A program made the position numbers and the translations under genes. DNA of 32,056 nucleotides, from contig VGEU01000029.1 in the NCBI GenBank assembly GCA_016869145.1, forward strand, positions 1 to 32,056, given 5' to 3'. The notes below the pieces were generated by a model that was not told where the DNA came from, made no database searches, and saw only the letters and a list, made by a program, of their open reading frames with translations. Positions 9,536-29,318 of the stretch are shown in pieces (positions within the stretch are counted from its first letter, which is position 1; each line of letters opens with the position of its first letter). The stretch is from Alphaproteobacteria bacterium (GTDB taxonomy: Bacteria > Pseudomonadota > Alphaproteobacteria > MPNO01 > VGEU01).

Positions 9536-9578
9536 GATTTGATGGCCGGCCCCGAGCGGCGATGGTGACCGGACCGCG

Positions 9579-9675: not shown

Positions 9676-10128
9676 ATGGTCGCCTTCACCATCAATGGCC
9701 GTCCGGCCGACGTCGCCAAACCGCCGGCGACCTCGCTTCTATGGGTCATCCGCGAGCATCTCAACCTCACCGGCACGAAATTCGGCTGTGGTGCGGGGCT
9801 CTGCGGCGCGTGCACCGTGCACGTCGACGGCAAGGCCCTGTTCTCCTGCCAGACGCAGCTCGGCGAGGTCGCGGGCAAGGCCATCACAACGATCGAGGGC
9901 CTCTCGCCCAACGGCCAGCACGCCCTGCAGAAGGCATGGGTCGCCGAGCAGGTGCCGCAATGCGGCTACTGCCAGTCGGGCCAGATCATGAAGGCGGCCG
10001 AGCTCCTCGCCGCCAACAAGGCGCCCTCGCGCGAGGCGATCGTGCGCCACATGGACGGCCATCTCTGCCGCTGCGGCACGTATCTCCGGATCGTGCGCGC
10101 GATCGAACGCGCGGCGAAGGAGGCCTAG
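9676..10128 (+). CDS. (2Fe-2S)-binding small subunit of a xanthine-oxidase-type dehydrogenase (IorA-like)
   Basis: A 150-residue electron-transfer subunit with two [2Fe-2S] clusters. The plant-ferredoxin-like cluster uses the cysteines of GCGAGLCGACTVHVDG and the later FSC. The second uses CGYCQSGQ and CRCGTY near the C-terminus. ATG 9676 has GGGGAGGA just upstream; the longer in-frame GTG start at 9634 has no support. It is 2 bases before the molybdopterin subunit gene, the IorA/IorB order of isoquinoline 1-oxidoreductase. It has no signal peptide, so if the complex is periplasmic it would travel with the Tat-targeted large subunit. No FAD subunit is present, and the electron acceptor (cytochrome c or other) is not encoded here. 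Confidence 0.92.
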   Translation: MVAFTINGRPADVAKPPATSLLWVIREHLNLTGTKFGCGAGLCGACTVHVDGKALFSCQTQLGEVAGKAITTIEGLSPNGQHALQKAWVAEQVPQCGYCQSGQIMKAAELLAANKAPSREAIVRHMDGHLCRCGTYLRIVRAIERAAKEA

Positions 10129-10130
10129 TC

Positions 10131-12371: not shown

Positions 12372-12390
12372 GTAACCTGCCTCGTCGCGG

Positions 12391-12419
12391 CGAGGCCCCG
12401 GCGCGATGCCGGGGCCTCG
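12391..12419. terminator. Strong hairpin between convergent genes
   Basis: CGAGGCCCCGGC (12391-12402) and its exact complement (12408-12419) form a 12-bp stem around a 5-base loop. It lies 20 bases after the molybdoenzyme stop and 123 bases past the end of the convergent FAH gene. Neither side has a clear T-run, so it may act as a bidirectional but imperfect intrinsic terminator or an mRNA 3' end stabiliser. Confidence 0.6.
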
Positions 12420-12541
12420 GCAAGGCGTTAACGCCCGAGGTCAAGGATGGCTGGGTGGCCGTCTGGACGCTCTTCGACGGCGCGCGCAGCGCCAGATGCA
12501 CCCGGGTGATGGTGAGCGCGATCGCGGATCGAGGCCGCCGA

Positions 12542-13477
12542 TCACGGCGCGGGTGCGTATTTCCCCGAAAGCTGCGGCGTCGTCACGCCGTCGCGCTTCT
12601 TCTCGGCGTGCTCGAGCCGCGTATCGCGCGCCCAGGTCCGCTTCAGATCGTCGCGCACCGCGATCGACAAACGTCCGATGCGCTCGATCTCGAGCTCGAC
12701 CCGATCGCCGTCCATGAACGCCGACAGCCCGCGATGGTTGGTGCCGGTCGCGAGGATGTCGCCGGGATCGAGCGGGTGGATCGCGCTCACCCAGGCGATG
12801 CAGCGCGGGATCTTGTGCGCCATGTCGTCGGTGTTGAAGTCCTGCTTGAGCGCGCCGGCGACCCAGAGGCGCACCCGCAGCCTGTGCGGATCCGGCACCT
12901 CGTCCGCGGTCACGATGAAGGGGCCGATCGGCGCAAAGCTCTCGCGCGATTTCATCTGGTAGAACGTGTTCCCAGCCGGCGGTAGGCCACGCGCGGAGCC
13001 GTCGATGAAACAGGTATAGCCGAATACGTGGCCCATCGCCTCGGTCTCGCGCACGTGACGCGCGCGGCTGCCGATCACCACCGCGAGCTCGGCCTCGCCC
13101 TCGAAAATCGTCGCCGGCACGTCGGGCAGCACCATCGTGTCGCCGGGGCCGATCACCGAGCCGGGCGACTTGTGGAAGGCGTTGATCGGCGCCGGCTCGG
13201 CCCGCGTCCCGTCCTCCATGTAGTTGACCGCCATGCAGTCGATGTTGCCGGGCCTCGGCAATGGCGGGCGGATGCGGACGGACGCGAGCGGCTTCGCCGT
13301 GCCCTTGGCGGCGGCGTCCTCGAGGCGCTTGCGGTAGTCGGCGAAGCGCGCGATCAACCCGTTGATCAGATCGCCGGGCCCGAGATGCGGGATGTCGCGG
13401 ACGGCGTCCATGACGTCGACGATGCCGTCGCCCTTGACCACGCCGAGGCGGAAATCGTCGAAGTAGCCGATCCTCAT
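12542..13477 (-). CDS. Fumarylacetoacetate hydrolase (FAH) family protein
   Basis: A 311-residue FAH-fold enzyme. The family holds metal-dependent acylpyruvate hydrolases, 2-keto-4-pentenoate hydratases and oxaloacetate decarboxylases that finish ring-cleavage pathways. Metal-binding acids are visible as E128-x-E130 (EGEAELAVVIG) and D159 (CFIDGSAR, the usual NDVSAR site). Start is ATG 13477 (MRIGYFDDFR), preceded by GAGGAGGGG; in-frame upstream sequence is shadow of the dioxygenase beta gene. It is third in the minus-strand operon after the ring-hydroxylating dioxygenase alpha and beta genes, 20 bases after beta, so it probably acts on a ring-cleavage or keto-acid product of the same pathway. 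Confidence 0.9.
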   Translation of the reverse strand: MRIGYFDDFRLGVVKGDGIVDVMDAVRDIPHLGPGDLINGLIARFADYRKRLEDAAAKGTAKPLASVRIRPPLPRPGNIDCMAVNYMEDGTRAEPAPINAFHKSPGSVIGPGDTMVLPDVPATIFEGEAELAVVIGSRARHVRETEAMGHVFGYTCFIDGSARGLPPAGNTFYQMKSRESFAPIGPFIVTADEVPDPHRLRVRLWVAGALKQDFNTDDMAHKIPRCIAWVSAIHPLDPGDILATGTNHRGLSAFMDGDRVELEIERIGRLSIAVRDDLKRTWARDTRLEHAEKKRDGVTTPQLSGKYAPAP

Positions 13478-13497
13478 GGCAGCGCCCCTCCTCTGGT

Positions 13498-13998
13498 TCA
13501 GATGTTGTAGACGTCGAGCGCGCCGACGATGCGGTCGTCGTGGACGTAGACGGTCTTTCGCGCGATGCGAAGCCCGTCCGGCGCGCGGCGGAACACATAG
13601 TCGTAGCGCCCGCCGCGGAGCGTCGCACCGCGCGTCCGCGCGAAGCTGCGGACGAGCCAGGCCGCACTCGCCTCGAGCTCGGCGCCCCGGGTCGCGGTCA
13701 CGAGCACGCTGGTCACGAGATGGGCGGTGAACGGCAAGGGCTCGGTCGCCCATGAATCAGCGCTCTCGATCCGGAACACGCGCGCCTCTAGCCCGGCCTT
13801 GTCCATGTACATCAGGCTCACGTTGTTGTCGGGATCGGTCGTGAATCCGTCGTCGGACGCCCACGCCGGAACCCAGAAGATCGCATCGTCGGCATAGAGC
13901 GCGAGCCAGTCCGCCCAGCGTCGCGTATCGAGGAGGAAGGCCTCGCGCGCGACGATCGCCTCGACCTCGGCGGCGACGGCGCGATCGACCGGCACCAT
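13498..13998 (-). CDS. Aromatic-ring-hydroxylating dioxygenase, beta subunit
   Basis: A 166-residue small subunit with the NTF2-like fold found in Rieske non-heme iron oxygenases. Family segments are FLLDTRRWADWLALYADDAIFWVPA, the residues around DPDNNVSLMYMD, and a C-terminal VYVHDDRIVGALDVYNI. It has a structural role, forming mixed hexamers with alpha. Start is ATG 13998, which overlaps the alpha stop by one base (TGATG) and implies coupled translation; an upstream in-frame ATG at 14022 would add eight residues and is less likely. Length matches the family. Electron donors for the system (reductase, ferredoxin) are not encoded nearby. Confidence 0.92.
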   Translation of the reverse strand: MVPVDRAVAAEVEAIVAREAFLLDTRRWADWLALYADDAIFWVPAWASDDGFTTDPDNNVSLMYMDKAGLEARVFRIESADSWATEPLPFTAHLVTSVLVTATRGAELEASAAWLVRSFARTRGATLRGGRYDYVFRRAPDGLRIARKTVYVHDDRIVGALDVYNI

Positions 13999-15329
13999 CA
14001 CGACGCCAACCGCCGCCGCCACTCGCGGTAGAAGCCGTCGAAGGCGGTCTCGCTCTCGCGCCCGGGATTGCTGGTCAACGGCTCGACGCCGAGCGCGCGC
14101 GCCGCCTCATCGGCGCCCGCGATCATCGTGGCGCGGCCGAGCGCGAGGTCGTTCCACACGTGAGCGGACGCCTGCGAGCCGGCATGCGCACCCTCCATCG
14201 CCGCGACGTCGTCGGGGACCGCGAGGCTCGCGGGGAAGAAGAAGTCCTCGTATTTCCGGATGCGGGCGCGCCGGGCCGCCGCGCTTTCGCCGATCGGGGC
14301 GAGGCACCAGGTCTCGATCTCGGTGAGATCGACGGCGATCGGGCGCCAGATGCGGATGCAGGTAGAGGCCATGTCGTTGAGCAGGAGGTTGGGAAAGATC
14401 GTCACGGTGCGGCCGCGATCGATCATCCAGCGCACTTTCTCCGCCCCGTGGACGGCCTCGAGGCGCGCGCGGCGCTCGTGAAGCGGCACCGCCTCCGGCA
14501 TGCCGCGCGTCGACCAATTGATCATGTGGCCGTTCCGGAGCGTGTAGGCACCCGAGACGATCTTGTCGAGGGTGAGAATGCGCGCCGCCTCGGTCTTCTT
14601 CATGGGATCGTCGGCGCCGGTGCCGAGGAGCGAATCGCGGAACGACAGCGCGGTGCCGAAGCTCCGGTGCACCGTGGCGACATGATAGCCGTCGGTCGAA
14701 TTCTCGGTCTGGAGCTTCCAGTTGGCGCGCATCATGTAGACGCTCTCGCCCTTCAGGATCTCCATGCCCTGCTCGGACTGGTCCGCCATCAGGTCGATGA
14801 ACGCCCGCGCATCGCCGAGGAACTCGTCGAGCGGATCGACGGCGGCATCGAGACAGCCGAACACGAAGCCCTTATAGGTCGCGACCCGCGGCACCGCGGC
14901 GAGGCTGACCGACGCCCGTTCGATCGCCGAGCCGTGGAAGCCCTCCTCGGCGCGGATCATCACGCAGCGCCCGTCGGCGGCGTAGGACCAGCCGTGATAG
15001 CGGCAGGTGATGGTTCGCGCGGTCCCCGACCTGCGCGCGGTCAGCGCGGCGCCGCGATGGGCACAGGCGTTCAGGAAGGCCTTGATCGATCCGTCGGCCT
15101 GGCGGATCACGAAGACCGGCTGGCGGCCGATCGTGGTCGCGACATAGGCGCCGTGGGCCCGGATCTGGCTCTCGTGGCAGAGATAGATCCAGGATCGCCC
15201 GAAGATCCGCTCCATCTCGCGCTCGAACAGCGCCGGATCGAGGAACACCGACCGGTGAACCCGGAACACGCCTGGCCGCTCGTCGATATAGCCGGTCGGA
15301 TCGAACTCTGACGGCGCCGTGTCGGGCAC
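13998..15329 (-). CDS. Aromatic-ring-hydroxylating dioxygenase, alpha subunit (Rieske)
   Basis: The catalytic large subunit of a ring-hydroxylating dioxygenase, 443 residues from the GTG at 15329. The Rieske [2Fe-2S] ligands are C89, H91, C109 and H112 (CAHRG, then CRYHGWSY). The mononuclear iron site has H216 and H221 with bridging D213 (STDGYHVATVH), the same spacing as D205/H208/H213 of naphthalene dioxygenase. The carboxylate ligand is probably in the late PDDVAAMEG segment. GTG 15329 is chosen because GGGAGG sits 5 bases upstream and a TTGACA promoter lies further back; the longer ATG start at 15446 would overlap that promoter. Head of an operon with beta and FAH genes, divergent from the UbiD pair. 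Benzoate/anthranilate/phthalate-like substrates are possible; the specificity is not readable. Confidence 0.92.
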   Translation of the reverse strand: MPDTAPSEFDPTGYIDERPGVFRVHRSVFLDPALFEREMERIFGRSWIYLCHESQIRAHGAYVATTIGRQPVFVIRQADGSIKAFLNACAHRGAALTARRSGTARTITCRYHGWSYAADGRCVMIRAEEGFHGSAIERASVSLAAVPRVATYKGFVFGCLDAAVDPLDEFLGDARAFIDLMADQSEQGMEILKGESVYMMRANWKLQTENSTDGYHVATVHRSFGTALSFRDSLLGTGADDPMKKTEAARILTLDKIVSGAYTLRNGHMINWSTRGMPEAVPLHERRARLEAVHGAEKVRWMIDRGRTVTIFPNLLLNDMASTCIRIWRPIAVDLTEIETWCLAPIGESAAARRARIRKYEDFFFPASLAVPDDVAAMEGAHAGSQASAHVWNDLALGRATMIAGADEAARALGVEPLTSNPGRESETAFDGFYREWRRRLAS

Positions 15330-15359
15330 CCGCGCCTCCCTCGGATTGACGGGGCTCGA

Positions 15360-15388
15360 ATCGTCCTCGACCGCCTCGGGCCTGTCAA
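15360..15388 (-). promoter_or_regulatory. Promoter of the ring-hydroxylating dioxygenase operon
   Basis: On the minus strand TTGACA (15388-15383, perfect -35), a 17-base spacer and GACGAT (15365-15360) precede the GTG start at 15329 with GGGAGG in between; predicted leader is about 24 bases. The -10 is poor (3 of 6). The promoter supports the GTG start over the upstream ATG. Confidence 0.5.
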
Positions 15389-15467
15389 CTCGCGCGGTTT
15401 GCGATGGACGGCCCGTCGGGATGACCTTAGAAACGGGCCGACCCAACGGGACCGAAGGGATATCGAG

Positions 15468-16994
15468 GTGTCGACGAGCGGTGGATTGAAGCGCGACAAG
15501 GCGGCGTTCGTCGATCTCAGCGGCTGGATCGAGGCGCTCAGAAAGGCGGGCGAGCTGCAGGCGATCGACGCCGAGGTCGACTGGGACGTCGAGCTCGGGA
15601 CGATCATCCGCATGGCCCAGGGCAAGGGCGACGGTCCGGCGCTCCTGTTCAACAACATCAAGGACTACAACCGGAACGACACGATCTGCCGCCAGCTCTT
15701 CACCGGCGGGCAGGGATCGTATTCACGGCTCGCGATGATGTTCGGCCTGCCGCGCGAGACGCCGCCGCGCGAGCTGGTCAAGATCTGCCGCACGATCTTC
15801 CAGGAGCGCGTCGCACCGCGCGTCGTCAAGACCGGCCCGGTCAAACAGAACGTCCTCAAGGGCGATGACATCGACCTCCTCAAGTTCCCGGTGCCGAAGT
15901 GGAACCGCGGCGACGGCGGGCGCTATGTGCTCACCTATGCCGGGTGCGTGACCAAGGATCCCGAGACCGACGTCCACAATGTCGGCATCTATCGCGGCGA
16001 GGTCGCCGGCCGCGACCGCATCCCGGTCCTGATGTGGCGCGCGCAGCATTGGGGCGGACACTTCGCGAAGTGGCAGGCACAGGGCAAGGACATGCCCGTC
16101 GCCTATGTGATCGGCTGGGAGCCGTCGATGGGCTTCACCGGCGGCGCGCCGGTGCCGCGCGGCGTTTCCGAGTATGACGTAATGGGCGCGATCCGCGGCG
16201 AGCCTGTCGATCTCGTCAAGTGCGAGACCGTCGATCTCTACGTGCCGGCCAACGCCGAGATCGTGATCGAGGGCTATATCTCCGGCGATCCGGCGAGCTT
16301 CACGCCGGAAGGACCCTATGCCGAGTTCACCGGCTATTACGCCGTCGAGCGCACCAGGAAGCCGACCACGCGCGTCACCTGCATCACCTACCGAGACAAC
16401 CCGATCTTTCGCGGCACGGTCGAGGGCGCGCTGCCGGGCTCTTATTCGGAGAACCCGATCATGAGCTCGGTGCAGCGGAGCGCGACCGCGTGGAACGCGC
16501 TCGAATCCGCCGGCGTCCCCGGCATCACCGACGTGTGGGGCCCGCCGATCCATGCCGGCGTCAATCTCTTCGTCCGCATGAACCAGACCTATCGCGGCCA
16601 GGCCAAGCAGGCGGCGATGGCGCTGTGGGGCAATTCGGCGGCGCATGTCCGCTACAAGCACGTCTGGGTCGTCGACGACGACATCGACATCCACGACTAC
16701 GCCGCCGTCGACTGGGCGTTCGCGTGGCGCGTCAACGCGGGCGAGGGCGACGTCCTGATCTATCCGGCCAATTTCGGCGCCGGGCTCGATCCCTCGACAC
16801 GTCGGCGCGACCGCGATCCGCTGCGCTTCGGCACCGGCAAGTGGGCGCGTGTCCTGATCGACGCGACGATCAATCTCGACTACGAGCCCGATCCCGACCT
16901 CGACGGCAAGCGCTATCCCCCGACGGTCGCGCCGACCGAGGCCGATCAGGCTGCCGTGCGGGCCCGCTGGGCCGAGTTCGGCTTCAAGAAATAG
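15468..16994 (+). CDS. UbiD family (prenylated-FMN) decarboxylase, copy 1
   Basis: A 508-residue UbiD-family reversible (de)carboxylase of aromatic, heteroaromatic or alpha,beta-unsaturated acids. The catalytic R-E-E triad of the family is intact: R176 (NVGIYRGE), E281 and E286 (EGPYAE), matching R173/E277/E282 of fungal Fdc1 in spacing. Start is the GTG at 15468 with GAAGGGA seven bases upstream; ATG 15399 lies inside the divergent control region and has no ribosome site. Followed 132 bases later by a close paralogue. The enzyme needs prenyl-FMN made by UbiX, which is not in the window. It lies divergent from the Rieske dioxygenase operon, pointing to aromatic acid metabolism rather than ubiquinone synthesis. 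Confidence 0.93.
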   Translation: MSTSGGLKRDKAAFVDLSGWIEALRKAGELQAIDAEVDWDVELGTIIRMAQGKGDGPALLFNNIKDYNRNDTICRQLFTGGQGSYSRLAMMFGLPRETPPRELVKICRTIFQERVAPRVVKTGPVKQNVLKGDDIDLLKFPVPKWNRGDGGRYVLTYAGCVTKDPETDVHNVGIYRGEVAGRDRIPVLMWRAQHWGGHFAKWQAQGKDMPVAYVIGWEPSMGFTGGAPVPRGVSEYDVMGAIRGEPVDLVKCETVDLYVPANAEIVIEGYISGDPASFTPEGPYAEFTGYYAVERTRKPTTRVTCITYRDNPIFRGTVEGALPGSYSENPIMSSVQRSATAWNALESAGVPGITDVWGPPIHAGVNLFVRMNQTYRGQAKQAAMALWGNSAAHVRYKHVWVVDDDIDIHDYAAVDWAFAWRVNAGEGDVLIYPANFGAGLDPSTRRRDRDPLRFGTGKWARVLIDATINLDYEPDPDLDGKRYPPTVAPTEADQAAVRARWAEFGFKK

Positions 16995-17012
16995 GCGCGC
17001 GCGAGCCATGCA

Positions 17013-17074
17013 GCTTGTGCCGGCGTCCATGCCGGAAAGCCGGTTGACGGCCGCACCCGCGGCCGGTCACAAGC
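17013..17074 (+). other. Structured intercistronic region between the two ubiD-like genes
   Basis: GCTTGTGCCGG (17013-17023) can pair, with one bulge, with CCGGTCACAAGC (17063-17074). Inside lie a CGGCCGC/GCGGCCG hairpin (17048-17054 with 17059-17065) and a CCGG/CCGG mini-hairpin near 17020-17035. No T-run follows. It may be an mRNA processing or attenuation element; a TTGACG at 17044-17049 could also be a -35, but no good -10 follows. Confidence 0.4.
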
Positions 17075-17126
17075 GCGCAGCCTGAACGGCCCTTCGTTTC
17101 CATCCCTCTCGCAGAGGAGACAGTCC

Positions 17127-18677
17127 TTGGACCGGCTTGGTGAGATCAACAACCTGATCCGTCCGCGCGCCTTCGGCGACCTGCGCGGCTGGATCGAGGC
17201 GCTCCGCGAGGCGGGCGAGCTCCACGAGATCGACGTCGAGGTCGACTGGGACTGCGAGCTCGGCACGATCGCGCGCCGCACCTTCGGCCAGGGCGACGGA
17301 CCGGCGCTCCTGTTCAAGAATCTCAAGGGCTACAACCACAAGGGCGCGCCGTCCTCGCAGGTCTTCACCGGCGGGCTCTCCAACTATTCGCGCATCGCGA
17401 TGATGCTCGGGCTGCCGCGCGATGCCGGCGTGACCGACCTCGTCACCGCGACCCGGCACTACTTCAACCAGCGCGTCAACCCGACCGAGGTGAAGTCCGG
17501 CCCGGTGAAGGAGAACATCCTGAAGGGCAAGGACATCAACCTGTTCAATTTCCCGATCCCGAAATGGCATCGCCAGGACGGCGGGCGCTACATCAACACC
17601 TACCAGGCGACGATCACCAAGGACCCCGACACCGGCGTCCACAATCTCGGCATCTATCGCGGCATGATCGGCGCCAAGGGCGACACGCTGCCGGTCCTCC
17701 TGTGGCGCGCCCAGCACTGGGGCCTCCATTTCCAGAAATGGGCCGCGCGCGGCCAGAAGATGCCGGTCGCGCACGTGATCGGCTGGGAGCCGGCGCTGCC
17801 CTATGCCGCCTCGGCGCCGATTCCGACGGGCGTCTCCGAGTACGAGGTGATGGGCGCCATCCTCGGCAAGCCGGTCGAGCTCGTGAAATGCGAGACGGTC
17901 GACCTCATGGTGCCGGCCTCGGCCGAGATGGTGATCGAGGGCTATATCGATCCCGATCCCGCGACCTACGAGGAAGAGGGTCCGTTCGGCGAGTACACCG
18001 GCTATTTCGGTGGCGACCAGGGCAAGAAGCACTCGACCAAGATCACCTGCGTCACCTACCGCAACGGCTGCATCCACCGCGGCACGCTCGAGGGCACGAT
18101 GCCCAAGATGTACAACGAGAACTCGGTGGTGAGCTCGATCCAGCGCGCCGCCGTGGCGTGGAACGTGCTCGAGCGCGCCGGCGTGCCGGGTGTCACCGAC
18201 GTCCATTGCCCGGCCGCCAACAACGGCACGACGCTGTTCATCCAGCTCAAGCAGACCTATCGCGGCCAGGCCAAGCAGGCGGCGGCGGCGATCTGGGGGT
18301 CCAACTCCTCGCACCTCCGCTACAAGCACATCTGGGTCGTCGACGACGACATCGACATTCACGACTACGCCTCGGTCGACTGGGCCTTCGCCTATCGCGT
18401 CAATGCCGCCGAGGACGACATCGTGATCTTCCCGGGCACGTTCGGCTCCTCGCTCGATCCCTCGACGCGGCTCAAATACCGCGACACGATCAAATACGGC
18501 ACCGGCAAGTGGGCGCGGGTTCTGATCGACGCGACCATGAACCTCGACTTCGACGAGGAGGAGCAGTACGGCGGCAAGCGCTATCCCGACACCGTCATGC
18601 CGCACAAGGAAGACTGGGCGCTCGTCGACAAGCGGTGGGAGGAGTACGGCTTCAAGAGGCCCAAGAAGGGCCGCTGA
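17127..18677 (+). CDS. UbiD family (prenylated-FMN) decarboxylase, copy 2
   Basis: A 516-residue paralogue of the preceding UbiD protein, clearly more than half identical by eye over the full length. The R-E-E triad is intact: R178 (NLGIYRGM), E284 and E289 (EGPFGE), so neither copy looks like a degenerate subunit. Shared blocks include TYRGQAKQAA, YKH-WVVDDDIDIHDYA and GTGKWARVLIDAT. Start is TTG 17127, with GAGGAGA seven bases upstream; no better ATG or GTG exists before the conserved GWIEALREAGELHEID. Tandem UbiD-like subunits occur in phenylphosphate carboxylase (PpcA/PpcD), so a hetero-oligomer is possible; two decarboxylases for successive or alternative substrates is the other reading. 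A Rho-independent terminator follows. Confidence 0.93.
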   Translation: MDRLGEINNLIRPRAFGDLRGWIEALREAGELHEIDVEVDWDCELGTIARRTFGQGDGPALLFKNLKGYNHKGAPSSQVFTGGLSNYSRIAMMLGLPRDAGVTDLVTATRHYFNQRVNPTEVKSGPVKENILKGKDINLFNFPIPKWHRQDGGRYINTYQATITKDPDTGVHNLGIYRGMIGAKGDTLPVLLWRAQHWGLHFQKWAARGQKMPVAHVIGWEPALPYAASAPIPTGVSEYEVMGAILGKPVELVKCETVDLMVPASAEMVIEGYIDPDPATYEEEGPFGEYTGYFGGDQGKKHSTKITCVTYRNGCIHRGTLEGTMPKMYNENSVVSSIQRAAVAWNVLERAGVPGVTDVHCPAANNGTTLFIQLKQTYRGQAKQAAAAIWGSNSSHLRYKHIWVVDDDIDIHDYASVDWAFAYRVNAAEDDIVIFPGTFGSSLDPSTRLKYRDTIKYGTGKWARVLIDATMNLDFDEEEQYGGKRYPDTVMPHKEDWALVDKRWEEYGFKRPKKGR

Positions 18678-18737: not shown

Positions 18738-20921
18738 TCAGGCTGCCCGCACCTCGGCGAGGAAGCCGCCGACCGCGGTCTTGAGCGCATCCGCCTCGCT
18801 CGTCAGGCCGCGCGCGGCACCGAGCACGTCGTTCAAGGCGGTGCCGGTCTGCTCGGAGGCCTGCGACACGCCGGCGATGTTGGACGAGACGTCCTGGGTG
18901 CCTTGCGCGGCCTGGGTGACGTTCTGGGCGATCTCCCTGGTCGCCGCGGTCTGCTCCTCGACCGCCGAGGCGACAGACGCGGTGACCTCGTTGATCGAGC
19001 CGATCGTGCCGGCGATCGATTCGATCGCGGTCACGGCCTCCCGGGTCGCGGTCTGGATGTCGGCGATCTGCGCCGAGATCTCGCCGGTCGCCTTGGCGGT
19101 CTGGTTGGCGAGCGACTTGACCTCGGAGACGACGACGGCGAAGCCCTTGCCGGCCTCGCCGGCGCGCGCGGCCTCGATCGTGGCGTTGAGCGCGAGAAGG
19201 TTGGTCTGGCTCGCGATCTCGGTGATCAGCCCGACCACCTCGCCGATGCGCTGCGCCGATTCGCTCAGCTTCTTGACGCGCTGGTTGGTCGTGGCCGCAT
19301 CGTTCATCGCGGTCGCGGTGATCCGCGTGCTCTCGGAGACCCGTGCGCTGATCTCGCGGATCGAGGCGGAGAGCTCCTCGGCCGAGGCCGCGACCTTCTG
19401 CACGTTGTTGGTCGCCTGCTCGGCCGCGGCGGCGACGCCGGTCGATTGGCGCGAGGTCTCCTCGGCGATCGCCGATAGAGTCTGGGCGGCGCTCTCCATC
19501 TGCGAGGCCAAGGACGACACCGACTGGATGACGCCGCCGATCCGCTGCTCGAACCCGTCGGCGAGCGCGAGCATCGACTGGCGGCGCTCGGCCGCGGCGC
19601 GTTCCTCGGCGAGGCGCTTCTCCTCCTCGCGGCGCTTCTCCTCCTCCCGCGCATGTTCCTCCGCCGCGCGCTGCTCGGCCTGAAGCCGGTCGTTCTCGAG
19701 CATACTCTCCTTGAACACACCGACCGCCGCGGCCATGGCGCCGATCTCGTCGTTCCTGTCGAGGCCGGGGATCGCCACGGTCTTGTCGCCCTGGGCGAGG
19801 GTTCCCATGGCCGAGGTCATGCGCGCGAGCGGCTTGGTGACGCGCACCGTCGTCACCCAGAACGCGAATCCCGCGATTGCGAGGATCACCAGAAGGACCA
19901 TGATCTCTAAGGTCATGGTGAATTCGGCATGCGACTGCATCGAGGACGCATAGGCCTTGGTCTCGTCCGCCGCGACGTCGCCGACCTTGAGGAGCGAATC
20001 GATCCCGGTCGTGGCGGCCGCAAACCACTGTTGACCGGCGACCGGATAGGGATCGCCGGCGAGGCCCGCCTTGAGCACGCCCTCGCGCAACCGGCTGAAC
20101 TCGCCGAAATAGGCGCGATCGGCATCGGCGACGGCGGCCCTGATCGGCGCCGGTGTCGTCGCACCGGCCGCGATCATCTTCACCTCCGACCACGCGAGCT
20201 CGATCCGGCCGCGACCGTCCGCGAGGGTCTGCGCAAGGCCCGGCTCGATCGGTCGGTTGGCGCCGATCACGCCGGCGACCGCGGCCCGCTCGCGGCCCGC
20301 ATATTCCGCGGCGACCCAGGCGAAGTGCTTGAGCGCCGAGAGACTGGCGACGAGCCCTTCGAGGTCGGCCGCGACGCGAGCGAGCGCGGCGCGGAGCTCC
20401 TGGCTCTTCATGATCGCGGTGGTCGCGATCGGCACCAGGCGGCGCGCCAATTCCGGATCACGTTCCGCCGCGGGCTTCGCGAGCGCCGCGTCGAGATCGC
20501 GGCGAAGCGCCCGCCAGGCGGCGACCGCCTGCTCGGTCTCCTGGATGAGACGGTCCTTCTCCGCGAACGGCCCGATCTCACCGAGCTCGGCGATCGCGGC
20601 ATCGAAGGCCTTGTCGGCTTTTTCGCGCCGGGCGCGGATCTGGACCTGCACCTCGGCGGAAACCGGTGACGACGCATGCGCCGCCGTATTGGTCAAGCCA
20701 CGCTCGACCGCCCAGGAGCCCGCAGCATCGAGAAGGTGGTTGGTCGTCGCGTTGACGGCCTCGATGCGTGAGGCGCGCTGGCTCTTCGACATGGCGCTGG
20801 CGATCTCGAGCCCGGCGAGCGCGACGGCGATCGTCCCGATCACGACGGTGATGCCGAGGAGCGACTGCTTGACCCGGTTGCTGTAGCGGCGCGAGCCAGT
20901 TGCGGCGTGTGATGGGGGCAT
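18738..20921 (-). CDS. Methyl-accepting chemotaxis protein, probable NIT sensor domain
   Basis: A 727-residue transmembrane chemoreceptor that controls CheA. TM1 is about residues 21-43 and TM2 about 338-357. Between them is a 290-residue periplasmic domain containing WAVERGLTN (70-78), a hallmark of nitrate/nitrite-sensing (NIT) domains. A HAMP domain follows (357-410), then an unusually Glu/Arg-rich charged helix (418-448), and the signalling domain with hairpin tip [19 protein letters not shown] (571-589). No C-terminal CheR/CheB pentapeptide is visible. ATG 20921 (MPPSHAATG) with upstream GGGGGAA is preferred over an in-frame start at 20966. It is monocistronic and convergent with the UbiD pair, so it may report on the catabolic substrate; the ligand is unknown. 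Confidence 0.93.
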
Positions 20922-21014
20922 GTTGGGAGTTCCCCCGATCGGACAGAGCGTGTCGGCGAACAACACGATCCGATCGTCGCGACCGTTCGTCCGGGGACCA
21001 CGATCGGAGGGTGC

Positions 21015-21634: not shown

Positions 21635-22150
21635 ATGCCCGGGCTCGAAGGTCCGCGCGGCAGCGAGATCATCGCCGCGATCAAGGCTGCGGGCGTCACC
21701 CATGTCGCGGCGCTTCCCGACATCACGACGAGCGCCGGCCTCCTGTGGCCGCTCTCGAAGGACACCAGCCTCAAGCTGGTCCGCCTGTCCAAGGAGGACG
21801 AGGGTGTGTCGATCTGCGCCGGTCTCTCCTACTGCGACGTCCGCGCCGTCCTCCTGATGCAGCACACCGGATTTCTCGATTCGATGAACGCGATCCGCGG
21901 CATCGCTGTCGAATACGGCCTGCCCATCTGCATGGTGGTCGGGCTCCTGCAGAAGGAGCCGGACCGACCGCCGGCGCAGTCGGCGCGCTTCGGCGTCCGC
22001 ATCATGGAGCCGATCTGCGCGGCCATGGGTATCGATTATTTCTGCATCGAGGGCTCGGAGGACGTCGCGCGTCTTGCGCCGGCGATCGAGCGCGCCTATG
22101 CGACCTCGCGCCCGCTGGTCGCGATGATCGGACGGACGGTGCGGCCATGA
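21635..22150 (+). CDS. TPP enzyme, N-terminal Pyr-domain subunit (sulfopyruvate/phosphonopyruvate decarboxylase alpha-like)
   Basis: A 171-residue stand-alone pyrimidine-binding (Pyr) domain of a thiamine-diphosphate enzyme, like the ComD subunit of sulfopyruvate decarboxylase. The motif LSKEDEGVSICAG (51-63) carries the glutamate expected to activate the cofactor. ATG 21635 has AGGAG at 21624-21628; the longer in-frame start is unsupported. The stop overlaps the start of the PP-domain subunit by 4 bases (ATGA), so the two are co-translated halves of one active site. 2-Oxo acid decarboxylation is likely. The substrate (sulfopyruvate, phosphonopyruvate or another 2-oxo acid) cannot be decided, and no partner genes of coenzyme M or phosphonate pathways are present. 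Confidence 0.85.
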   Translation: MPGLEGPRGSEIIAAIKAAGVTHVAALPDITTSAGLLWPLSKDTSLKLVRLSKEDEGVSICAGLSYCDVRAVLLMQHTGFLDSMNAIRGIAVEYGLPICMVVGLLQKEPDRPPAQSARFGVRIMEPICAAMGIDYFCIEGSEDVARLAPAIERAYATSRPLVAMIGRTVRP

Positions 22151-22725
22151 TGCGGCGCGACGAAGCCTTCCGCACCCTCGCCGAGCTCCGCGGCGACGCG
22201 GTGGTCGTCTCGACCTACACATCCGCCTTCGAGTGGATGAAGGCGGCGCGGAGCCCGCTCAACTTCGTCAGCGTCGGCGTGATGGGCCAGGCCTCCTCGC
22301 ACGGCCTCGGCCTCGCGCTCGGCATGCCGGACCACAAAGTGATCGTCCTCGACGGCGACGGCAGCCTTCTGATGAATCTCGGCACGTTGGTAACGATCGC
22401 CAACGCGGCGCCCAGGAATCTCGTCCATTTTGTGGTCGAGAACGGCTGCTACGAGGCGAACGGCAGCCATCCCATCCCCGGCCAGGGCCGGGTGAGCTTC
22501 GCCGGCATGGCGCGGGCCGCCGGCTTCGCGAAGGTCTACGAGTTCGACGGCCTCAACCGCTTCGCGGCCGAGCTGCCCGAGGTCCTGTCGGTACCCGGTC
22601 CGGTATTCGCGACCCTCAAGGTGGTGGCCGGCGATCCGCCGCCGCAGGACTACGAGCTGATCCACGGTCCCGGCGTGCGCGCGGCGTTTCGCGCCGCGAT
22701 CCGCCCGTTCCTGAGCCGGTCATAG
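22147..22725 (+). CDS. TPP enzyme, C-terminal PP-domain subunit (sulfopyruvate/phosphonopyruvate decarboxylase beta-like)
   Basis: A 192-residue diphosphate-binding (PP) domain of a split thiamine-diphosphate decarboxylase. The cofactor motif begins at GDG (70-72, VIVLDGDGSLLMNLG) and ends at N99 (FVVENGCYEANG), the usual magnesium/TPP binding stretch. VGVMGQASSHGLGLALG precedes it. Start is ATG 22147 overlapping the stop of the Pyr subunit; the adjacent ATG 22150 would differ by one residue. The two chains should form an alpha2beta2 enzyme. It is followed after 17 bases by the first TPR-glycosyltransferase, so the pair heads a long plus-strand unit. Confidence 0.87.
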   Translation: MMRRDEAFRTLAELRGDAVVVSTYTSAFEWMKAARSPLNFVSVGVMGQASSHGLGLALGMPDHKVIVLDGDGSLLMNLGTLVTIANAAPRNLVHFVVENGCYEANGSHPIPGQGRVSFAGMARAAGFAKVYEFDGLNRFAAELPEVLSVPGPVFATLKVVAGDPPPQDYELIHGPGVRAAFRAAIRPFLSRS

Positions 22726-22742: not shown

Positions 22743-24620
22743 ATGGCCGACCGACCGCGACCGACCGCGCCCGCGCTCGCGCGCCTGCTTGAGGAGGCCG
22801 TCGCCCATCATCGCCGCGGCCGGATCGGCGAGGCGGAGCGGCTCTATCGCCGCGTGCTCGATGCCGATCCAAGCCAGCCCGACGCACTCCATCTCCTCGG
22901 CGTCGTCGCCCAGCAGGCCGGCCGCCCCGCTGATGCCGAAAGCCTTATCGGGCGCGCGATCGCGATCGATGCGCGCGTGCCGCTCTACCACAACAATCTC
23001 GGCGTCGCGCTCCGCACCCAAGGACGCCACGCAGAGGCGATTGCGCATTACCGGCGCGCGGTTGCGCTCGACCCCCGCTACGGCGAGGCGCTGGTCAATC
23101 TCGGCAACGCGCTCGATGCGACCGGCGCATCCGAGGACGCGCTCGTCGCCTACCGGCGCGCCTTGGCCATCGATGCGGAGAGCGCGGCGGCGCGCACCGG
23201 CGCCGGCCAAATGCTGGTGAAACTCGGCCGGGCCGCGGAGTCGATCCCGCATTTCCGCGCCGCCGCCGCCGCCGAGCCCACATCGGCGCGCGTCCATCAC
23301 AATCTCGCCAACGCGCTGATCCAGGCCGGCGACCTCGACGAGGCGATCGCCGCGCTCGAGCGTGCCGTCGCGCTCGATCCCGATCTCGTCGATGCGCGCC
23401 GCCATCTCGGCCTTCTGCTCCGCGAACGCGACCGGCCGGCGGACGCCGAGCGCCACCTCCGCGCCGCGATCGACGCCGCGCCCGATGACGTCGCCGCGCT
23501 CCATGCGCTCGCGCTCTGCTGCAAGGACCTCGATCGGCCGGACGAGGCCGAAGCGCTCCTCGCCGCGGCGATCGCTGCCGCGCCTGCGGATGCGATGCTC
23601 CATGGCGACCGCGCCAATGTCCTCAAGGAGCTCGGCCGCGCGGCAGAGGCGTGGCAGGAGTTCGATGCCGCCCTCGCGCTCCGGCCCGACCTCGACAGTG
23701 CGCGGGCGAACCGCGCGCTCATGCGGCTCGCCGCCGGTGATTTCGCCGCCGGCTGGGCCGACTATCTCGCGCGCGCGACGGTGCGCGACAAGCGGGTCAC
23801 GCTCGCGCGCGCCCCGCTCGGCGCCGATCTCGGCGGCCAGCGCCTTCTCGTGCTCCGCGACCAGGGCCTCGGCGACGAGATCTTCTTTCTTCGCTTCGTC
23901 GCGACGCTCAAGGAACGCGGCGCCTGGATCGCCTATCGCGCCGATCCGAAGATCGCTCCCCTTCTCGCCGGCCTCCCGTTCATCGACCGGCTGGTCGGCG
24001 CGGACGAGACGCCGGAGGCGATCGATGCCGTGCTCTCGATCGGCGATCTGCCGGCACTTCTCGGCCATGCCGCGTCGGCCGATGTGCCGCCCTCGATCCG
24101 GCTCGCGCCCGATCCGGAACGGCTCGCGCGCGCGCGCGCGCAGATCGCCGCGCTCGGGCCCGGCCCGGCGATCGGCGTCACCTGGCGCGCCGGAATCCAG
24201 CGGCGCAACCGATTGTCCAAGATCGGCCCGCGCGAAGGCATCGCCGCCGCGCTCGCGACGACGGAGGCAAACGTCGTTGTCCTTCAGCGCGCGCCGGGCG
24301 AGGGCGAGCTCGCCGCATTCGCGGCGGGGCTCGGGCGGCCGGTCCTCGACCTAACCGCCCTCAACGACGACCTCGCCGACATGCTCGCCGCCCTCGCCGT
24401 AATCGACGACTATGTCGCGGTGAGCAACACCAACGTCCATCTTCGCGCCGCACTCGGCCGCGCGAGCCGCGTGCTGGTGCCGCATCCGGCGGAATATCGC
24501 TGGATGGATGCGGGCGCGACCTCGCCGTGGTTTCCCGACTGCGCGCTCTATCGCGAGACGGTCGATCGCGGCTGGTGGCCCGCGCTCGATCGGCTGTCGG
24601 CCGATCTCCGGCGCGGCTGA
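22743..24620 (+). CDS. TPR-repeat protein with C-terminal glycosyltransferase-like domain, copy 1
   Basis: A 625-residue protein. Residues 10-360 are about ten tetratricopeptide repeats (recurring A-IAHYRRAVALDP-type helices). Residues 365-625 form a GT-B-like domain of the GT9/GT41-related kind, with RDQGLGDEIFFLRF (372-385), GVTWRAG, SNTNVH (561-566) and YRWMDAG..SPWFP near the end. TPR arms normally select a protein acceptor; the architecture resembles FlmG of Caulobacter, which glycosylates flagellin. First of three tandem paralogues, separated from the next by 6 bases. The start lacks a strong ribosome binding site, so translation may be coupled to the TPP subunit gene. The donor sugar and target are unknown. 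Confidence 0.87.
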   Translation: MADRPRPTAPALARLLEEAVAHHRRGRIGEAERLYRRVLDADPSQPDALHLLGVVAQQAGRPADAESLIGRAIAIDARVPLYHNNLGVALRTQGRHAEAIAHYRRAVALDPRYGEALVNLGNALDATGASEDALVAYRRALAIDAESAAARTGAGQMLVKLGRAAESIPHFRAAAAAEPTSARVHHNLANALIQAGDLDEAIAALERAVALDPDLVDARRHLGLLLRERDRPADAERHLRAAIDAAPDDVAALHALALCCKDLDRPDEAEALLAAAIAAAPADAMLHGDRANVLKELGRAAEAWQEFDAALALRPDLDSARANRALMRLAAGDFAAGWADYLARATVRDKRVTLARAPLGADLGGQRLLVLRDQGLGDEIFFLRFVATLKERGAWIAYRADPKIAPLLAGLPFIDRLVGADETPEAIDAVLSIGDLPALLGHAASADVPPSIRLAPDPERLARARAQIAALGPGPAIGVTWRAGIQRRNRLSKIGPREGIAAALATTEANVVVLQRAPGEGELAAFAAGLGRPVLDLTALNDDLADMLAALAVIDDYVAVSNTNVHLRAALGRASRVLVPHPAEYRWMDAGATSPWFPDCALYRETVDRGWWPALDRLSADLRRG

Positions 24621-24626
24621 GGATCG

Positions 24627-26591
24627 ATGCGCGCGACAATAGAGACCGCGGCGCAGGCGTTCGGCGCCGGACGCCTCGACGAGGCGGAGGCCGATTGCCG
24701 GCAGATACTCCTGGTCGAGCCCGAGAACGGCGATGCCCTCCACCTCCTCGGTCTAGTCGCATTGCACAGGGGTCGGACCGGGGAGGCCGTCGACACGCTT
24801 CGCCGCGCCGTCGGGCGCCTCGGGCGCGACGCACGGCTCCGCGCCAATCTCGGCACCGCGCTCCTCGAGCATGGCGACACCGAGGGCGCGATCGGCGCGT
24901 TTCGGCGCGCGCTCGATCTCGACATCCGGCTCCCCGACGCGCTCTACGGCCTCGGCAGCGCGTTGGCTCGGGCCGGACAGGCGGTCAAAGCCGTGCCGTG
25001 GTTCGAGCGTCTCGTCGCCCTGCAGCCCGACCACGCGCCCGCGCTGAACGGCCTCGGCCTCGTGCGCGCCGCATCCGGCGATCCGACGGGCGCGATCGAG
25101 GCGTTCCGCCGCGCGCGCGCCGCGGCGCCGCGTTTCGCGCCGGCCTCGTACAATCTCGCCCTCGCGCTCCGCTGTGAGGGCCGTCTCGACGAGGCGATCG
25201 CCGTCCTCGTGCCGCTCGTCGAGGCCCTGCCGGACGAACCGCGCGCCCGCGCGCTTCTCGCCGCGACACTCGGCGACGTCGAGCGTCTCGACGAGGCCGA
25301 GCGTCATCTCGAAGCCGCGCTCCGCAACGCGCCGGCGCTCCCCGAAGCGCTCGTCGCCGCGGCCGAGATTGCCCGCCGTCGCGGTGCTTTCGATCGCGCC
25401 GCGACCTATTGCGAGAGCGCGCTCGCGACCGCGCCCGATCACATCCCGGCGCTCGTCAATCTCGGCAACGCACGCGTCGCGCTCGGCCGGCCGGCGGCGG
25501 CGCTGGCGCCTCTCCGCCGCGTGGCCGCGCTCGAGCCGCGATCGGCCGATCACCACGCCAACCTCGCCCGCGCGCTCCGTGCCGCGACCGAGAACGATGC
25601 GGCGATCGCGGCTGCCGATGCGGCACTCGCGCTCGATCCCGGCCACACCGATGCCCGCTTCTGCCGCGCGCTCGCCCTCCTCCTCGCGGGACGCTACGGC
25701 GAGGGCTTTCGCGACTACCGCGCGCGCGGCGCGATCGGGGCGGCGGCCGCACGCTTCCACCGCGACGTGCTGCCGGACCGGCTCGACGGTCGGAGGCTTC
25801 GCATCGAGCGCGACCAGGGCCTCGGCGACGAGATCTTTTTCCTCCGCTTCGTGCCCGCGCTCCGCGCGCGCGGCGCGCATGTCACCTATCGTGGCGACCC
25901 GCGGCTCGTGCCGATGCTCGCGCGGAGCGGCATCGCCGATGCGGTCGTCGCAGCCGACGCGCCCGACACCAGCGCGCCCGACGCTGGCGCCGAGCTCCTC
26001 CTCGCGGTCGGCGATCTCCCATTCCTCCTCGGCATGACCGACGCCGACGCGCCGCCACCCTCGATCGCGCTCGCGCCGCTCGCCGCGGCGGTCGAGGCGA
26101 TGCGCGAACGGCTCGCCGCGGCCGGTCCGCCGCCCTATGTCGGTCTCACCTGGCGCGCCGGCACGCCCGATAGAGAGGCGACACTCTACAAGGAGGTCCC
26201 GCGCGATGCGCTCGCACGCGCGCTCTCGGCGACGACCGCGACGCTGATCGCGCTCCAGCGTTTGCCGGCACCGGGCGACATCGACGCGCTCGCCGCCGCG
26301 GTCGGCCGGCCCGTTCACGACTTCTCCGCCGTCAACGATGATCTCGAGGCGATGCTCGCGCTCGTCGGCCTCCTCGACCGCTATGTCGCGGTGAGCAACA
26401 CGAACGTGCATCTCCGCGCCGCCCGCGGACGTTCGTCCTACGTCCTGTTGCCGAGCCCGCCCGAATTCCGCTGGATGGCGAGGGGCGAGGAGAGCCCCTG
26501 GTTTCCCGGCACCCGCCTCTTCCGCCAGACGGCGGACGGCGACTGGTCGACCGCGATGGCCGCACTCGCGGGCGCGCCGATGGCCGATTAA
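24627..26591 (+). CDS. TPR-repeat protein with C-terminal glycosyltransferase-like domain, copy 2
   Basis: A 654-residue paralogue with TPR repeats over about residues 5-370 and the same C-terminal domain: RDQGLGDEIFFLRF (395-408), GLTWRAG, SNTNVH (590-595) and EFRWMARGEESPWFPGTRLFRQ-like ending. GAGG overlaps the previous stop and serves ATG 24627, only 6 bases after copy 1. The repeat region differs from copy 1 much more than the catalytic domain does, as expected if each copy recognises a different acceptor protein. Cytoplasmic: no signal peptide or membrane segment is seen. A role in protein or surface-polysaccharide glycosylation is inferred from family only. Confidence 0.87.
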   Translation: MRATIETAAQAFGAGRLDEAEADCRQILLVEPENGDALHLLGLVALHRGRTGEAVDTLRRAVGRLGRDARLRANLGTALLEHGDTEGAIGAFRRALDLDIRLPDALYGLGSALARAGQAVKAVPWFERLVALQPDHAPALNGLGLVRAASGDPTGAIEAFRRARAAAPRFAPASYNLALALRCEGRLDEAIAVLVPLVEALPDEPRARALLAATLGDVERLDEAERHLEAALRNAPALPEALVAAAEIARRRGAFDRAATYCESALATAPDHIPALVNLGNARVALGRPAAALAPLRRVAALEPRSADHHANLARALRAATENDAAIAAADAALALDPGHTDARFCRALALLLAGRYGEGFRDYRARGAIGAAAARFHRDVLPDRLDGRRLRIERDQGLGDEIFFLRFVPALRARGAHVTYRGDPRLVPMLARSGIADAVVAADAPDTSAPDAGAELLLAVGDLPFLLGMTDADAPPPSIALAPLAAAVEAMRERLAAAGPPPYVGLTWRAGTPDREATLYKEVPRDALARALSATTATLIALQRLPAPGDIDALAAAVGRPVHDFSAVNDDLEAMLALVGLLDRYVAVSNTNVHLRAARGRSSYVLLPSPPEFRWMARGEESPWFPGTRLFRQTADGDWSTAMAALAGAPMAD

Positions 26592-26639
26592 CAACTCGTA
26601 ATCATCGCAAGACCTATGCTGCCCGCCTGTCGAGGACGG

Positions 26640-28568
26640 ATGGTCGGCGTGGTGACACGGAAGGGCCGCTGGAACCGGAATGCCGAGCGCGCGCCGACGG
26701 TCGATGCGCTGATTGCGCGCGCCGTGGCCGCGCTCCGCGCCGGCGATCCGGTGACGGCGGCCGATCTCGCGGCCGATGCGCACGTGCTCGTGCCCGACGA
26801 CCCACACGTGCTCGAGCTCCGCGGCGTCGCGGCGCTCAACCAGGGTCGCGTCGCGGAGGCGATCCGCTGGCTCTCCGCCGCGCGATGGGTCGATCGAGAC
26901 AATGCCGGCGTCGAGACCAATCTCGGCATCGCCTATTTCGCCGCCGGCCGCCTCGACGAGGCCGAGGCGATGCTCGTCGCCGCGACCGCGCGCGGGCCCG
27001 ATCTCGCCACCGCCCACCGCACGCTCGGACAGGTGCTCGCGGAGCGCGGACGACCGGCCGAGGCGGCCTCTGCGTTCCGCGCGGCGATCGCGCTCGCTCC
27101 CGACGACGCCGAGGCATGGCACGGCCTCGGCCTCGCGCTCGACGATGGGGGCGACCGCGACGGAGCCGAGGCGGCCTTGCGCAGGTCCGTCGCGCTCGCA
27201 CCCGAGTGCATCGCGGCGTTGAACGACCTCGCGACCCTTCTGCATCGGGCCGCGGGCGCGGCCGAGAGCGTCGCCCTTTTCGAGCGCGCCCGTCGGCTTT
27301 CGCCGCTCGATGCGGCAGCCCAGAACGTCTACGGCGCGGCGCTGTTCGATTGCGGACGGCCGGCCGACGCCGAGCGCGCCTTCCGCCTCGCGATCGCCAA
27401 GCGGCCCGATCTCGCCGATGCCTGGATCAATCTCGGCAACACGCTCTGCGCGCTCGACCGCCCGCTCCAGGCGGTCGCCTGCTACGATCGCGCGCACGCC
27501 GTCGACGCGGTCGATGTTTCACTCTGGATCAATCGCGGTCACGCCAACAAGCAGGCGGACCGGCTCGACGACGCCGCCGACGACTATTCGCGCGCGATCG
27601 CGCAGGCTCCCATTCACGACAAGGCGCGTTTCGCGCGCGCGCTCCTCGATCTCGCGCGTGGGCGCTTCGACCGCGGATGGCAAGGCTATGCCGCGCGCGA
27701 GAGCATGCGCCGCCACCGCGCCGGCGCGCATCAACGCCCATTGCCCGACGATCTGTCCCGGCGCCGCATCCTGATCCGCCACGATCAGGGCCTCGGCGAC
27801 GAGCTCTTCTTTCTCCGCTTCGTCGCGCGCCTGCGTGCGCGTGGTGCGCACGTGACCTATTGGCCGGATCCTCGGCTCGCCGCGATGCTAACGCGGGCGG
27901 GCATCGCCAATAGGATCGCCGACGATGGCGCCGGTGCGTTCGACTACCGGCTGTCGGTCGGCGATCTGCCGCTCGCGCTCGCCATGGCGTCGGTCGACGA
28001 CATCCCGCCCGCGTTCCCGATCCCGCCGGAGGCCGCGTGCGACCGCGCGGTCGCGGACCGGCTGGACGCCGCCGGACCCCCCTTGCGCATCGGTGTCGCC
28101 TGGCGCGCCGGAACCGAGGCGCGCGGCAGACTCCTCCACAAGGCGGTCCCGCTCGAGGCGCTGGCGCACGCGCTCGCCGATCTGCCCGCGACCATGGTGA
28201 TCCTGCAGCGCGACCCCGATCCGGCGGAGATCGTGCGTTTCGCGGCCCTCGTCGGACGCCCGGTGCTCGATCTCTCCGGGCTCAATGCCGATCTCGAGGC
28301 GATGCTCGCCCTGGTCGGCCGGCTCGATGCGCTGGTCGGCGTCAGCAACACCAACGTCCACTTCCGCGTCGCGCGGGGCCGCCCGTGCCACGTCCTCGTG
28401 CCGCGGCCACCCGAGTTCCGCTGGATGGCCGCGGGGCGCGAAAGCCCGTGGTTTCCCGGCTCGCCGGTCTATCGCCAGGCGCTCGACGGGAGCTGGGACG
28501 CGGCTCTCGCCGCCCTCCGCGACGATCTGGCGGCCGCGCTCGGCGCTCGCGACTCTGGACAAGGATGA
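26640..28568 (+). CDS. TPR-repeat protein with C-terminal glycosyltransferase-like domain, copy 3
   Basis: A 642-residue third paralogue. TPR repeats span about residues 20-360, then HDQGLGDELFFLRF (381-394), GVAWRAG, SNTNVH (569-574) and EFRWMAAGRESPWFPG. It differs from copies 1 and 2 in having VGVSNTNVHFRVARG, and is the most diverged at this site. ATG 26640 is preferred over the in-frame ATG 26616 because GAGGA lies directly upstream of it. The 48-base gap before it is AT-rich relative to neighbours and begins TTAACA, a conceivable -35 for an internal promoter. It is followed after 39 bases by a small GT-A glycosyltransferase. Confidence 0.87.
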   Translation: MVGVVTRKGRWNRNAERAPTVDALIARAVAALRAGDPVTAADLAADAHVLVPDDPHVLELRGVAALNQGRVAEAIRWLSAARWVDRDNAGVETNLGIAYFAAGRLDEAEAMLVAATARGPDLATAHRTLGQVLAERGRPAEAASAFRAAIALAPDDAEAWHGLGLALDDGGDRDGAEAALRRSVALAPECIAALNDLATLLHRAAGAAESVALFERARRLSPLDAAAQNVYGAALFDCGRPADAERAFRLAIAKRPDLADAWINLGNTLCALDRPLQAVACYDRAHAVDAVDVSLWINRGHANKQADRLDDAADDYSRAIAQAPIHDKARFARALLDLARGRFDRGWQGYAARESMRRHRAGAHQRPLPDDLSRRRILIRHDQGLGDELFFLRFVARLRARGAHVTYWPDPRLAAMLTRAGIANRIADDGAGAFDYRLSVGDLPLALAMASVDDIPPAFPIPPEAACDRAVADRLDAAGPPLRIGVAWRAGTEARGRLLHKAVPLEALAHALADLPATMVILQRDPDPAEIVRFAALVGRPVLDLSGLNADLEAMLALVGRLDALVGVSNTNVHFRVARGRPCHVLVPRPPEFRWMAAGRESPWFPGSPVYRQALDGSWDAALAALRDDLAAALGARDSGQG

Positions 28569-28607: not shown

Positions 28608-29318
28608 ATGAGCGCCGCCCCGTTTCCCGTCTATGTCGGCTGGGACAGCCGCGAGGAGATCGCCTACGAGGTGTGCCGCTTCTCGATCGAGCGGCGCGCG
28701 ACGGTGCCGGTCGCCGTCGTTCCGTTGAACCAGGCGGCGCTCCGCGCGCGCGGGCTCTATGACCGCCCGGTCGACCCGCTCGCCTCGACTGAGTTCACCT
28801 ACACCCGCTTCCTGGTGCCCGCGCTCGCGGGCTATAGCGGCTGGGCGATCTACTGCGACTGCGACTTTCTGTGGCTCGCCGATATCGGATCGCTGATCGC
28901 CTGCGTCGACGACCGCTATGCCGTGATGTGCGTCCACCACGACCACCGCCCGTCCGAGCACATCAAGATGGACGGGCGACAGCAGACGCTCTATCCGCGC
29001 AAGAACTGGTCGAGCCTGGTCCTCTATAATTGCGGCCACCCGGCGAACCGCGCGCTCACCGTCGCGGTCGCCAACCGAGAGACGGGCTCGTTCCTGCACC
29101 GCTTCCAATGGCTCGACGATGCGCAGATCGGCGCCGTGCCCGAGACCTGGAACTGGCTCGAGGGCTGGTCGACACCGCCGGCCGACGGCCCGCCCAACGT
29201 GGTACACTACACCCGAGGCGGGCCGTGGTTTCCCGAGTGGATGGACGTGACCTACGGCGCGCTCTGGATCGAGGAACGCCGGGCGCTCGAGGCGGCCATG
29301 GCGCGAGGTGCGAGATGA
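28608..29318 (+). CDS. Putative GT-A-fold glycosyltransferase (DxD)
   Basis: A 236-residue protein with the look of a small nucleotide-sugar-dependent glycosyltransferase: N-terminal VYVGWDSREEIAY, then STEFTYTRFLVP, and IYCDCDFLWLADI with D84-x-D86 as the likely metal/nucleotide-sugar site. VVHYTRGGPWFPEW near the end resembles acceptor-side loops of GT8-like enzymes. No signal peptide or membrane anchor. It stands directly after the three TPR-glycosyltransferases and overlaps the next gene by 4 bases (ATGA), so it probably works in the same glycosylation process. The exact CAZy family is uncertain from sequence reading alone. Confidence 0.75.
   Translation: MSAAPFPVYVGWDSREEIAYEVCRFSIERRATVPVAVVPLNQAALRARGLYDRPVDPLASTEFTYTRFLVPALAGYSGWAIYCDCDFLWLADIGSLIACVDDRYAVMCVHHDHRPSEHIKMDGRQQTLYPRKNWSSLVLYNCGHPANRALTVAVANRETGSFLHRFQWLDDAQIGAVPETWNWLEGWSTPPADGPPNVVHYTRGGPWFPEWMDVTYGALWIEERRALEAAMARGAR

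Follow-up and report, generated by a model that had tools for sequence, protein, structure and literature searches.

The window analysed here, 32,056 bp at 70% GC, is from contig C29 of a 3.93-Mb alphaproteobacterial assembly that is 99.2% complete. On its forward strand lie three consecutive genes for proteins with a tetratricopeptide repeat (TPR) array and a predicted glycosyltransferase domain, which we call TPR-GTs A, B and C, followed by a gene for a small glycosyltransferase-like protein. TPR-GT A (22743–24620, forward strand; 625 residues) carries a TPR array at approximately residues 15–340, matched by Pfam TPR families, and a GT9-like domain with a predicted GT-B fold at approximately residues 360–625. 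TPR-GT B (24627–26591, forward strand; 654 residues) contains one additional 34-residue TPR unit, and TPR-GT C (26640–28568, forward strand; 642 residues) could be extended to 650 residues from an alternative ATG at 26616; since GAGGA precedes the start at 26640, the shorter form is likelier. B and C have their C-terminal domain (CTD) in common with A. The partner gene (28608–29318, forward strand) encodes a 236-residue, GT8-like protein of predicted GT-A fold, with a DCD motif at residues 84–86 and a C-terminal HYTRGGPWF. Intergenic gaps measure 6 bp between A and B, 48 bp between B and C (24 bp with the alternative start) and 39 bp between C and the partner. The open reading frames (ORFs) of B and C both pass a codon-position GC filter; a 914-residue antisense ORF at 24753–27497 is missing from those that do so, and we took it to be an artefact of high GC. 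Promoter and terminator scans of the locus, uninformative at this GC content, found nothing.

The motifs QGLGDE, T/AWRAG, SNTNVH and SPWFP occur in all three CTDs, with a substitution immediately following the first motif in C, which reads QGLGDEL. Pairwise CTD identities among the three proteins are 50.6, 48.3 and 59.1%, with alignment scores of 558–686 versus approximately −40 for shuffled sequences. The TPR parts behave differently. In an ungapped comparison they are 33–39% identical in register; a slide by whole 34-residue repeats leaves 22–35%, and an off-register comparison approximately 11%. Only the A–B pair stands slightly above the whole-repeat-slid values. Because sliding by whole repeats preserves so much of the identity, the arms share little beyond the TPR consensus. 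The CTD has been conserved, but the arrays have drifted almost as far as the TPR background. The initial annotation had described three consecutive genes of these lengths with a TPR array and common CTD motifs, which the ORFs and alignments confirm, and had noted that the TPR parts differ far more than the CTDs, a contrast that is stronger than the raw identities suggest.

Pfam and NCBIfam recognise the TPRs alone in these proteins. We therefore modelled the CTD of A (23751–24617) by AlphaFold2 with 30 homologues, obtaining a mean predicted local distance difference test (pLDDT) score of 93.5. Its best structural matches were the GT9 protein 3tov (Z 19.1; 3.0 Å, 249 residues aligned), WaaF (17.8), TibC (16.9) and WaaC (16.2). 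Against several GT-B enzymes, Z scores of 16–19 were reached over 233–249 residues, versus 12–13 for unrelated GT-B-like proteins. The CTD is thus confidently predicted to adopt a GT-B fold of GT9 type, the fold on which the initial annotation had made its interpretation depend. That annotation had left GT41 and GT9 both in play as relatives; the structural matches point to a GT9-like rather than a GT41-like domain. No GT41 structure is among the structural matches listed for the CTD, and phmmer matches to OGT are confined to the TPR part. Together, the Pfam TPR families and the predicted GT-B domain support the TPR-glycosyltransferase architecture that had been proposed.

Sequence relationships place the CTD further from established families. 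The GT9 model PF01075 matches 1 of 30 subfamily members, at a non-significant E of 0.11, whereas all 20 members examined from a broader TPR-GT family, characterised by QGLGDT...DTAxAH, match it weakly. The two groups align over the whole CTD (hhalign E 5.6e-44 over 270 columns). Within the QGLGDEI motif of A (23862–23882, forward strand), Asp378 would by analogy correspond to the aspartate of LGD in GT9 enzymes (WaaC Asp13, TibC Asp110), although the hidden Markov model alignment to 3tov is weak (E 0.81). This GT9-type Asp is retained in 97% of the 30 subfamily members and a Lys in 93%. The Lys stands where the broad family has Arg and may correspond to TibC Lys230, a correspondence drawn from the residue pattern and not from a residue-level superposition. 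At the SNTNVH motif (24423–24440 in A, forward strand), the broad family has D-T-A-x-A-H at the same place, so that the D-T of the GT9 sugar site is replaced by S-N. Across the 30 members, 16 residues are invariant and many more nearly so, the Asp, Arg and Lys included. Searches of PDB sequences with profiles of the CTD, the partner and the broad family returned no significant match. Judged by its sequence, the CTD is a distinct, unnamed subfamily (QGLGDE...SNTNVH) for which there is no Pfam or NCBIfam model.

A genome scan for relatives recovered 22 loci, all proteobacterial; those classified further are alphaproteobacterial, mostly Rhodospirillales. In a maximum-likelihood tree of CTDs, the subfamily forms a clade on a long stem (support 100/99), apart from the broad family. 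TPR-GT A falls in a 14-row subclade (support 97/92), and B groups with C, apart from A. The two paralogue types are therefore older than the lineage, and we reject a recent tandem duplication, since the supported subclade that holds A is not that of B and C. Multi-copy clusters also occur elsewhere, with four copies in one genome (G309; L007/L117), two fused copies in Magnetospirillum moscoviense (L010) and, in G235 (L116), three copies with the partner gene between them. At a syntenic locus in G014 (L048:1468–3456, reverse strand), the TPR-GT keeps an intact frame, yet QGLGD has become RNLSE and the GT8-like partner is absent; this genome is 79% complete. The surroundings of other subfamily genes vary. 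In G204 (L120:522–7195), one lies beside an ATP-binding cassette (ABC) transporter of type I secretion type, an HlyD protein and a group-4 glycosyltransferase. Sulfotransferase genes adjoin subfamily TPR-GTs at L007:11627–12640, L122:3404–4282 and, as judged from sequence, L006:8109–8909, hinting at sulfated products. A carbamoyltransferase and a second TPR protein adjoin the subfamily gene at L021:13771–15591, L023:5799–7625 and L024:12651–14495, with the Pfam assignment checked for L023.

An AlphaFold2 model of the partner protein (pLDDT 87.1) matches LgtC (1g9r, Z 17.4) and GlyE (5gvv, Z 17.1), and we assign it, from this predicted structure, as a GT-A enzyme near GT8 with a DxD motif. The Glyco_transf_8 model PF01501 scores it at 12 bits versus a cut-off of 24.3, and weak matches to it are seen in 11 of the 13 homologues, the best at E 1.8e-4. 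Twelve related loci (L013, L016–L020, L026, L030, L034, L035, L070 and L116) have the partner immediately downstream of, and on the same strand as, a subfamily TPR-GT; L017 and L026 retain a longer gene order of deaminase, TPR-GT, partner, C26 peptidase and RluB. We assessed co-occurrence in 289 genomes of the class with completeness of at least 90%, calling the subfamily at best scores of at least 298 bits, the next being at most 165. The partner was present in 12/12 subfamily genomes versus 18/277 others (Fisher p 1.5e-13, with phylogeny ignored), and 17 of those 18 carry a broad-family TPR-GT. Plasmids of Paracoccus, Phyllobacterium and Mesorhizobium carry the partner too, on stretches in which no TPR-GT is seen, so the link, though strong, is not exclusive. 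Synteny and co-occurrence nevertheless bear out the proposed association between the small DxD gene at 28608 and the TPR-GTs.

Other genes of the window appear less closely connected. A thiamine pyrophosphate-dependent decarboxylase is encoded by two genes at 21635–22725 (forward strand; alpha 21635–22150, beta 22147–22725), 17 bp upstream of A, and resembles sulfopyruvate/phosphonopyruvate decarboxylases at NCBIfam scores below the cut-offs. It is possibly co-transcribed with the TPR-GT genes but probably stands outside the glycosylation system; no counterpart was seen at the relatives' TPR-GT loci. Positions 5418–18677 hold a catabolic-looking cluster with a PadR regulator, PaaA/C-like proteins, PhyH, HpcH/HpaI, a molybdopterin hydroxylase, an FAA hydrolase, a ring-hydroxylating dioxygenase and two UbiD genes; in L026, too, the TPR-GT locus has a UbiD-like pair next to it. 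At 18738–20966 lies a gene for a methyl-accepting chemotaxis protein (HAMP and MCP signal domains), in a genome that lacks flagellin and FlhA matches; its role may lie in a different kind of motility or signalling.

The layout of these enzymes is that of FlmG, and the initial annotation had suggested perhaps one enzyme per flagellin or surface protein, looking to flagellin copies and nonulosonic acid genes for corroboration. On this account, each TPR-GT would modify flagellin with a nonulosonic acid. Flagellins are indeed present in 9 of the 12 subfamily genomes, and tandem TPR-GT arrays do lie next to flagellar genes in G101. However, no flagellin (PF00669), FlhA or NeuB (PF03102) match was found in the 99.2% complete genome, with controls positive in known flagellates, and two other subfamily genomes, G148 and G204, likewise lack flagellin. 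Class-wide there is no association (flagellin in 9/12 subfamily genomes versus 172/277 others, p 0.54), and the arrays within flagellar loci (L111, L110) belong to the broad family, not to that of the window. We consequently reject flagellin as the acceptor in this genome and, with NeuB absent, a nonulosonic acid as the donor; the flagellin account is refuted here unless the assembly misses flagellar genes, and we consider it very improbable. What stands of the earlier interpretation is the architecture, the GT-B fold, the TPR divergence and the linkage of the small DxD gene; one enzyme per flagellin does not. That idea would be better tested at L111:2521–11960 in G101, where a tandem run of three TPR-GTs of the broad family, plus one more long ORF that is TPR-like, directly adjoins FliS, FliD-like and flagellin genes. 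Arrays of approximately six flagellins with FlaF-like genes occur at L113:5392–19859 and L114:1–16601, flanked by TPR proteins of approximately 830–980 residues that, as judged from sequence, are of GT41 (OGT/SPINDLY-like) type. A search for FlmG beside the flagellins of G054, G101, G120, G214, G217 and G293 turned up enzymes of the broad family or of GT41 type, none of which could be recognised as FlmG.

Two further explanations do without flagellin. The GT9-like and GT8-like enzymes could build a glycolipid or polysaccharide, such as lipopolysaccharide (LPS) core or capsule, the TPRs then serving as a scaffold. Their nearest folds, the LPS heptosyltransferases WaaC and WaaF and the LPS galactosyltransferase LgtC, are consistent with this, as are the partner near a GT9 gene on the Mesorhizobium plasmid pMESCI01 and LpxK and a lipid A acyltransferase within the window. 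Three paralogues with diverged arms would nonetheless be unexpected in such a pathway, and the Pfam matches of the window include neither Wzx/Wzy nor ABC genes for polysaccharide export. LPS heptosyltransferases are not known to carry long TPR arrays, and overall we regard this explanation as unlikely, though a serious competitor. Alternatively, the CTDs could be non-catalytic and the proteins scaffolds or chaperones, leaving the GT8-like enzyme alone active. Two observations would fit: Ser stands in place of Asp in the DTA motif of GT9, and the motif-less G014 copy is still an intact ORF. Against such a role speak the invariant and near-invariant residues of the subfamily, the Asp, Arg and Lys among them, and the motif-less copy is the very one that lacks the partner gene; we judge it improbable.

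The explanation we favour, at about even probability, is a cytoplasmic protein O-glycosylation set in which three initiators, each specific for its own acceptors, share a single extender. Each TPR-GT would bind its own acceptor protein or group of proteins through the TPR superhelix, and its GT9-like GT-B domain would move the first sugar from a nucleotide-sugar to that acceptor. The GT8-like enzyme, which we infer to extend the glycan, would then add a further sugar whichever TPR-GT had started the chain. Acceptors would be non-flagellin proteins, plausibly exported or at the surface; the secretion neighbours at L120 and the RTX proteins of the genome make secreted proteins candidates, and nothing ties the RTX proteins to the locus. 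As a donor, ADP-heptose is possible and in principle available, through the HldE-like kinase that the genome encodes. The coincident loss of QGLGD and absence of the partner in the incomplete G014 genome is in keeping with this scheme. Several points weigh against this scheme. The CTD has negligible sequence similarity to any solved GT9, and with Ser instead of Asp in its sugar-site motif it could have changed or lost its activity. The co-occurrence p value takes no account of phylogeny, and the partner has plasmid-borne copies with no TPR-GT nearby. That the acceptor is a protein is something we infer, and acceptor and donor are both candidates only.

TPR-guided cytoplasmic glycosyltransferases are already known from FlmG of Caulobacter crescentus, in which TPR-directed cytoplasmic protein glycosylation is established (PMC7591256), as is GT9-type cytoplasmic protein O-glycosylation from TibC and the BAHT family, whose definition includes a four-cysteine iron finger (PMC4358343). 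FlmG is a single enzyme of 596 residues with a GT-B part of approximately 290, serving six flagellins with pseudaminic acid (PMC7591256). By layout, the proteins of the window resemble it in combining an N-terminal, putatively acceptor-binding TPR part and a predicted C-terminal GT-B part in one, presumably cytoplasmic, chain, but differ in having three paralogues, a GT8-like partner and a genome without flagellin or NeuB. With TibC they share the predicted GT9-like GT-B fold and an Asp base and a Lys at candidate equivalent positions; unlike TibC/AAH, their CTDs contain 0–2 Cys, and hence no four-cysteine iron finger, and TPRs take the place of an N-terminal beta-barrel. WaaC and WaaF (PF01075) share the fold, the catalytic Asp position and, in a weak sequence alignment, the GD motif; the CTD is shorter and, as noted, barely detected by their family model. 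OGT and SPINDLY (GT41) likewise place a TPR superhelix before a GT-B domain, but the CTD aligns best with GT9 structures. The partner resembles the GT8 enzymes LgtC and GlyE in its predicted GT-A fold, its DxD and a C-terminal H...GGPWF reminiscent of the GT8 HxxGxxKPW, yet is only 11–16% identical to them and has no GT8 Pfam match above the cut-off.

A TPR arm joined to an unnamed GT9-like CTD, with several arms per genome and a GT8-like partner, all without flagella, is a combination that we did not find in the literature searched, a weak negative given its partial coverage. We tentatively propose, as a possibility we hold with some reserve, a two-tier, flagellum-independent form of protein glycosylation, in which several TPR-GT9-like initiators of this unnamed subfamily, with separate acceptor arms, would feed one shared GT8-like elongating enzyme. 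The locus brings to light a conserved partner enzyme, along with a CTD subfamily that has no name in the present Pfam and NCBIfam models. What sets acceptor specificity in cytoplasmic O-glycosylation has been called poorly understood (PMC7591256). Here an organism that lacks flagella offers a natural set of three enzymes, near-constant in the catalytic part and with TPR arms that are almost unrelated, which is suited to a direct domain-swap test of that specificity.

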